This document shows positions 37,312-37,858 of a DNA stretch of 64,000 nucleotides, piece after piece. Source of the DNA: Flavobacterium sp. Its GTDB lineage: Bacteria > Bacteroidota > Bacteroidia > Flavobacteriales > Flavobacteriaceae. Every line of letters begins with the position of its first letter. Within the stretch, counting starts at the first letter, position 1. Location: positions 1-64,000 of the forward strand of contig JAIPAM010000010.1 in NCBI GenBank assembly GCA_021740105.1, written 5' to 3'. The position numbers were made by a program, and so were the translations under genes. The notes beneath the pieces are model-generated. The model was not told the origin of the DNA. It worked only from the letters and a program-made list of their open reading frames with translations, and did no database searches.

Positions 37312-37412
37312 AATACTATTGTTTTAAATTAATTTACAAATATAACAATTCCCAATTTACCGATGTTACAATTTTCAATTTCCTTATAAATAAAAAAAAA
37401 GAAGTATTAGGT

Positions 37413-37441
37413 TTGATTATTGAAAAATAAGTGTAAATTTG
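37413..37441 (+). promoter_or_regulatory. Promoter of L31 gene
   Basis: TTG, 18 bases, TAAATTTG, matching the flavobacterial consensus. It predicts a leader of roughly 105 bases that contains a long hairpin. Confidence 0.7.
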
Positions 37442-37473
37442 CAGACTCAAAATAATAAAGTTACAACAAAAAG

Positions 37474-37528
37474 TTATAATGAGTTGATACCTTTTCCGTC
37501 AAATGAAAAGCTTCACAACAAATTATAA
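37474..37528 (+). promoter_or_regulatory. Structured 5' leader of L31 gene, candidate ribosomal-protein leader
   Basis: The leader can form three stacked helices: TTATAAT (37474) with ATTATAA (37522), GTTG (37483) with CAAC (37516), and CTTTTC (37491) with GAAAAG (37505), closing an 8-base loop. A 2x2 GA/AA internal loop separates the first two helices, and a 4x5 loop separates the next. Seventeen base pairs in a short leader of a ribosomal-protein gene suggest autogenous control by L31. No terminator lies before the ATG, so control would act on translation. Not checked against known leaders. Confidence 0.5.
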
Positions 37529-37554
37529 TTGAAACAAATAAAAAAAGATTTAAG

Positions 37555-37806
37555 ATGAAAAAAGGTGTACACCCAGAAAATTACAGATTAGTTGCTTTTA
37601 AAGACATGTCAAACGAAGACGTTTTTATCACTAAATCTACTGCTGAAACAAAAGAAACAATCGTTTACGAAGGTGTTGAATATCCAGTTGTTAAAATGGA
37701 GATTTCTAGAACTTCTCATCCTTTTTACACAGGTAAATCTAAACTTATTGATACTGCAGGACGTATTGATAAATTCAAAACTAAATACGCTAGGCACGGT
37801 AAATAA
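37555..37806 (+). CDS. rpmE2: 50S ribosomal protein L31, type B
   Basis: An 83-residue ribosomal protein starting [20 protein letters not shown] and ending [11 protein letters not shown]. It lacks the CxxC zinc pairs of type A L31, so it is the zinc-independent form, with [21 protein letters not shown] as the conserved block. It sits at the intersubunit bridge of the large subunit. It has its own promoter with a structured leader and its own terminator. In many bacteria type B L31 replaces the zinc form under zinc shortage; here it may simply be the only copy, which the window cannot show. Confidence 0.97.
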
Positions 37807-37830: not shown

Positions 37831-37858
37831 AAAACCTCGCTATTTGCGGGGTTTTTTA
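37831..37858 (+). terminator. Terminator of L31 gene
   Basis: AAAACCTCGC, a 5-base loop and GCGGGGTTTT, with one G-T pair, followed by more T, 24 bases after the stop. Confidence 0.85.

Follow-up and report, generated by a model that had tools for sequence, protein, structure and literature searches.

A structured leader hairpin of the monocistronic bL31 gene in Flavobacterium, a candidate lineage-specific autogenous operator

The window analysed here, a stretch of 64,000 nucleotides from a Flavobacterium sp. genome, carries the gene rpmE2, which encodes an 83-residue ribosomal protein bL31 of type B. It is the sole L31 gene of its genome, and a single L31 copy per genome was found in all seven genomes checked. 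The gene is preceded by a Bacteroidota-type promoter and a hairpin with A-rich, unpaired flanks (Table 1), and the intrinsic terminator past its end makes the bL31 transcript monocistronic. Upstream of the bL31 promoter lies a divergently oriented neighbor of the DUF4199 family (PF13858; 36769-37311, minus strand), the product of which is a membrane protein of a family with no assigned function.

The TTG-18-TAAATTTG promoter proposed in a first-pass annotation of the sequence is found in the window, and all 68 loci compared show this arrangement ahead of the leader: the TAAATTTG box is always present, and the TTG element is spaced by 18 bases in 60 cases and by 18 or 19 in 67. PMC9723704 places the box at -12 to -5. 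The rpmE2 transcription start is predicted at approximately position 37446, five bases past the TAAATTTG -7 box, and thus not downstream of 37474, where it would have spoken against the proposed leader. The resulting 5′ UTR would span about 109 nt; the 5′ UTR median given for F. psychrophilum in the same paper is 24 bp.

Table 1 Features of the bL31 locus in the window and loci with a different candidate leader elsewhere.
Feature	Position	Strand	Evidence
Bacteroidota-type promoter: TTTG 37412-37415, 18-base spacer, TAAATTTG 37434-37441	37412-37441	+	sequence
A-rich unpaired 5′ leader segment	37446-37472	+	whole-UTR fold; A-rich in relatives too
Whole leader hairpin	37473-37529	+	-11.3 kcal/mol, z -3.74; model R1 82.3 bits; RNAalifold from 37 species
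P1, 5′ strand paired with 3′ strand	37473-37480 / 37522-37529	+	7/7 modelled pairs changed on both sides, 92.3% paired
P2, 5′ strand paired with 3′ strand	37483-37486 / 37516-37519	+	compensatory changes in 4/4 pairs, 98.1% paired
Internal loop 5′ side, AYAC (putative bL31 contact)	37487-37490	+	A37487 and A37489 invariant 67/67; C37490 66/67
P3, 37491-37496 with 37505-37510, apical loop 37497-37504	37491-37510	+	99.1% paired
Internal loop 3′ side, CNKCR (putative bL31 contact)	37511-37515	+	C37511 and C37514 invariant 67/67
A-rich unpaired spacer, hairpin to start codon	37530-37554	+	whole-UTR fold
rpmE2, putative regulated gene, type B (no CXXC) bL31	37555-37806	+	NF002462 117.6 bits, PF01197
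Intrinsic terminator of the rpmE2 transcript	37831-37855	+	terminator scan, 1 found vs 0.2 expected
Polaribacter/Tenacibaculum-type leader loci: L113, L114, L116, L122, L126, L131, L138, L139, L141, L145, L295, L296	upstream of bL31

When the complete UTR is folded, the hairpin is the only structure formed and both flanks stay open, including the stretch ahead of the start codon, with the base of the hairpin ending about 25 nt ahead of the AUG. From bottom to top, the hairpin consists of a lower stem of 8 bp (P1), a 2x2 internal loop (37481-37482/37520-37521), a middle stem of 4 bp (P2), an asymmetric 4x5 internal loop AYAC/CNKCR and an upper stem of 6 bp (P3). The element had originally been delimited as 37474-37528 with seven, four and six pairs, all of which are present (37474-37480/37522-37528, then P2 and P3 as in Table 1), and the optimum is merely one pair longer. 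The first-pass annotation called 17 pairs in 55 bases notable even though chance pairing is likelier in AT-rich DNA; only one of 200 dinucleotide shuffles is equally stable (z -3.74), and the shorter interval yields the same z.

To judge the pairing comparatively, bL31 loci were drawn from 60 relatives. An identical layout was observed in 37/37 genomes of the same genus, with the motif AYACCU...AGCNKCR located shortly 5′ of the bL31 ATG; over 68 loci, the distance between the conserved core and the ATG is 29-40 nt. From a sequence-only alignment of 37 species, RNAalifold recovered the structure, 12 of its 16 pairs showing compensatory changes. Paired cells amounted to 93.7%, compared with 80.7% for shuffles and 41-57% for slid controls, and none of 500 shuffles attained most of the observed pairing measures. 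In a larger set of 69 leaders (67 distinct), paired cells reach 95.9% and compensatory changes occur in 13/16 pairs and in all three helices, where their absence would have argued against the proposal, although this alignment was fitted to the model and is hence biased towards the model structure. A GC-rich copy (L003) adopts the same fold with quite different letters.

A further test, designed to avoid this bias, used an ungapped alignment extended outward from the conserved core and built without structure, along with a null in which columns were simulated on the bL31 coding-sequence tree (300 simulations; the 11 P1 and P2 pairs only). In these pairs, 22 double compensatory events were observed versus 4.1 expected on average (sd 2.0; no simulation exceeded 12), and standard pairs made up 82.6% versus a null maximum of 77.5%. 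The anchored test replaced an all-pairs G-test, the nearest equivalent of the R-scape analysis suggested at the outset, for which the leaders had been freely aligned together with their flanks; no pair fell below E 1 there, and P1 register errors and a strong phylogenetic signal left the G-test uninformative. The hairpin structure between the promoter and the start codon is kept by compensatory change, and it is tied to bL31 across Flavobacterium.

Sequence conservation within the hairpin is distributed in a different way than pairing. The nucleotides left unpaired in the upper internal loop, a feature absent from the first-pass annotation, rank among the most conserved positions of the leader, whereas the sequence of P1 varies freely yet stays paired, a pattern characteristic of a protein-recognized structure. 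The tandem G-A-like 2x2 loop that had originally drawn attention does exist in the window copy, but it is not a conserved element, its positions varying freely among relatives. In P3, compensatory changes are seen in two of the five modelled pairs and two pairs never vary; the length of the apical loop differs among relatives. Judging from the invariant nucleotides, AYAC and CNKCR are proposed to constitute together the recognition site for bL31.

With the covariance model of the leader (R1), matches were obtained in 288 of 300 Flavobacterium genomes and in 251 of the 254 high-quality ones, and almost every matching genome has a single copy. All 68 strong copies examined are located directly upstream of bL31. 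The three high-quality misses comprise a genome with no detectable bL31, a divergent copy under the threshold and a bL31 gene without a visible leader (genome G683). In G597, a 99% complete genome of the same genus, neither the bL31 gene nor the leader was detected, owing to either loss or an assembly gap. Among named records, the leader is carried by the matched Flavobacterium loci and one Myroides sp. and is absent from the Capnocytophaga, Lacinutrix, Polaribacter, Tenacibaculum and Chryseobacterium loci. Strong matches in 400 Flavobacteriaceae genomes were confined to Flavobacterium, as were all 24 matches in 396 genomes across Bacteroidota, with the strict filters of these large searches possibly missing weak relatives. 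The element had been suggested to be a flavobacterial L31 leader; a structured, bL31-specific leader is supported, but the term "flavobacterial" is too broad for a distribution that covers Flavobacterium and one Myroides locus.

Possible occurrences elsewhere were considered and rejected: the R1 matches in other genera that might have placed the motif on other genes are weak and low-scoring, seven such loci lacking bL31, the second matches in three Flavobacterium genomes are likewise low-scoring, and exact matches to the core pattern outside the genus lie inside coding regions. Weak model matches also fall on an unrelated head-to-tail tandem repeat with 53-base spacing (G704:C1:4111043-4111530). 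At 87 bL31 loci of relatives lacking the leader, the predicted UTR has a median length of 34 nt, compared to 107 nt at leader-bearing loci, and a further 80 loci are consistent with a short bL31 UTR in relatives lacking it. The simplest reading is that the leader was gained in the Flavobacterium/Myroides lineage. Most other Flavobacteriaceae manage without it; this, like the missing leader of G683, counts against a role as an autogenous operator.

No family of Rfam 15 matches the leader in a search of the window and the leader itself, a comparison already suggested by the first-pass annotation; the weak matches obtained correspond to the terminator, the coding region and the far strand. No L31 family appeared at E-values of up to 10 for the window or up to 1 for seven relatives, while as a positive control the same library detected RF03157 in E. 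coli rpmE with 60.1 bits, RF03157 being the sole L31 family verified by name as present in the scanned library. As stated in the first-pass annotation, L31 leader classes exist in other phyla: PMC7247131 describes five, from Actinobacteria, Coriobacteria, Corynebacteriaceae, Firmicutes and Gammaproteobacteria, none of them in Bacteroidota. The four non-gammaproteobacterial leaders, as presented there, are similar in being single L31-associated hairpins restricted to one phylum each, but belong to other phyla, and no Rfam L31 family matched the Flavobacterium leaders. The same text lists Flavobacteria S4, S15 and S16 leaders, which are candidate r-protein leaders from the same bacterial group but on other genes, and the bL31 locus has no Rfam match. 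The F. psychrophilum transcriptome survey flags 64 structured 5′ transcribed regions (PMC9723704, Table S7), and its main text mentions neither L31 nor rpmE; the leader may be among the tabulated regions. A full-text search of the open-licence literature did not return a Flavobacterium L31 leader.

The closest known system is the L31-Gammaproteobacteria leader (RF03157), the operator of E. coli rpmE, where bL31 represses its own mRNA via an irregular hairpin interrupted by two internal bulges, with an AU-rich enhancer upstream of it (PMC10931766). L31p, the paralogue, exerts its effect through this hairpin too, and the asymmetric inner loop is required (PMC9825181). Both leaders are single irregular hairpins located 5′ of a monocistronic L31 gene, and in both a lower stem is followed by a small symmetric loop, a short middle stem, an asymmetric loop with one additional base on the 3′ side and an upper stem; the AU-rich stretch upstream of the E. 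coli operator (PMC10931766) has a counterpart in the A-rich stretch in Flavobacterium. The likeness in topology was judged by eye and supports a similar mode of action, not family membership. In contrast, neither sequence similarity nor a covariance-model match to RF03157 is seen in the window or in relatives, the internal loops are 1x1 and 2x3 in RF03157 but about 2x2-3x3 and 4x5 in Flavobacterium, and E. coli has a Shine-Dalgarno sequence and a C+ L31, neither of which is found in Flavobacterium. The hairpin is best read as a new lineage-specific L31 leader that belongs to none of the named L31 leader families compared.

Leaders of bL31 might have arisen more than once within the family. At ten Polaribacter/Tenacibaculum-type loci, the bL31 UTR measures 93-101 nt and contains a hairpin of another kind, composed of a stem of approximately GWGUAAA/UUUACWC and the loop GCUUUACCAAC, in which five of the eight predicted pairs show compensatory change (10 sequences). 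A model of this hairpin (R2) gave matches in two genomes out of 380 from the family, each lying upstream of bL31. It represents a candidate for a second, independent L31 leader class, and with few sequences it is a lead rather than proof. Likening the Polaribacter loop to a circular permutation of the internal loop in Flavobacterium is speculation. It appears an even bet whether bL31 operators arose independently at least twice in Flavobacteriaceae, in the Flavobacterium/Myroides and the Polaribacter/Tenacibaculum GCUUUACCAAC lineages, by insertion into an ancestral leader of about 34 nt, and would there repress non-Shine-Dalgarno initiation. Near-identical bL31 leaders of 67-68 nt, GAGAAAUAUCCAUUACUAUUUCGAAAGC, occur in Chryseobacterium and two genomes of the same order (L165, L167, L039 and L040); these were rejected as a structured element, since the predicted hairpin is no stabler than shuffles (z -0.25). 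Long bL31 UTRs of unrelated sequence are also present in three non-Flavobacterium genera (L224 in G120, 92 nt; L287 in G179, 70 nt; L293 in G084, 68 nt).

Taken by its position and conservation, the element has the attributes of an r-protein leader, as compensatory change maintains its structure and bL31 follows inside the predicted transcript at 68/68 loci. It is likely, by analogy with E. coli, that the hairpin functions in cis as an autogenous operator on the monocistronic mRNA of bL31, to which bL31 would bind and thereby hinder initiation. An origin of the element in chance pairing, in a transcription-factor DNA palindrome or in a transcription attenuator is scarcely credible: while the stems are AT-rich in the window genome, covariation excludes chance, a DNA palindrome does not fit the P1 letters that are free to vary as long as pairing is kept, and the terminator scan detects a site past the gene but none in the leader. 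A protein-independent 5′ UTR element that supports high bL31 translation without feedback, either as an mRNA stabilizer or as a ribosome standby or enhancer site, is unlikely. The open start region and A-rich flanks would suit such a role, and as ribosomes in Bacteroidota, Flavobacterium included, initiate without Shine-Dalgarno pairing (PMC9976891), leader structure could directly affect initiation; stabilizing stems, however, need no conserved unpaired bases, whereas conservation in this leader is highest in the upper internal loop, and a generic enhancer would be expected on more than one gene, while this element sits on bL31 alone.

Control of the leader by something other than bL31, be it an assembly factor, another r-protein, an RNA or a metabolite, also appears quite improbable. 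Gene association does not identify a ligand, L31p provides a precedent for a second protein acting on the rpmE hairpin in E. coli (PMC9825181), and L31 leaders are discussed in PMC7247131 with regard to zinc homeostasis. Yet bL31 is the only gene in the terminated transcript, and a metabolite aptamer would be expected to be larger than this hairpin. The paralogue pair with and without CXXC that underlies the zinc-linked Zur/L31p switch was not found in the seven genomes, each having one L31, and with a single type B protein lacking CXXC, zinc switching between paralogues does not apply.

In the autogenous model, bL31 is probably the ligand and represses translation, as suggested by the association of the leader with a single gene and by the proven E. 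coli case. Surplus free bL31, beyond the need of assembling ribosomes, would bind the hairpin by contacting the invariant nucleotides of the AYAC/CNKCR loop. The unbound leader would be ON by default, given the distance of the hairpin base from the AUG and the unpaired AUG region in the predicted fold. With bL31 bound, the 30S subunit would load less readily at the A-rich initiation region, and less bL31 would be made until ribosomes have taken up the surplus; changed mRNA stability may contribute as well. How translation would be blocked is a matter of conjecture, because the hairpin leaves the start codon uncovered, and interference with 30S loading is favored over start-codon masking on account of the gap of about 25 nt and of initiation without Shine-Dalgarno pairing.

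The leader would represent a sixth lineage-specific candidate class of L31 leaders and the first found in Bacteroidota. Leaders of L31 are already known to have originated repeatedly and independently. With the putative operator and its invariant nucleotides defined sufficiently for mutational tests in F. johnsoniae, and with no Shine-Dalgarno use in Flavobacterium, the system may offer a test of r-protein repression that operates without Shine-Dalgarno competition.
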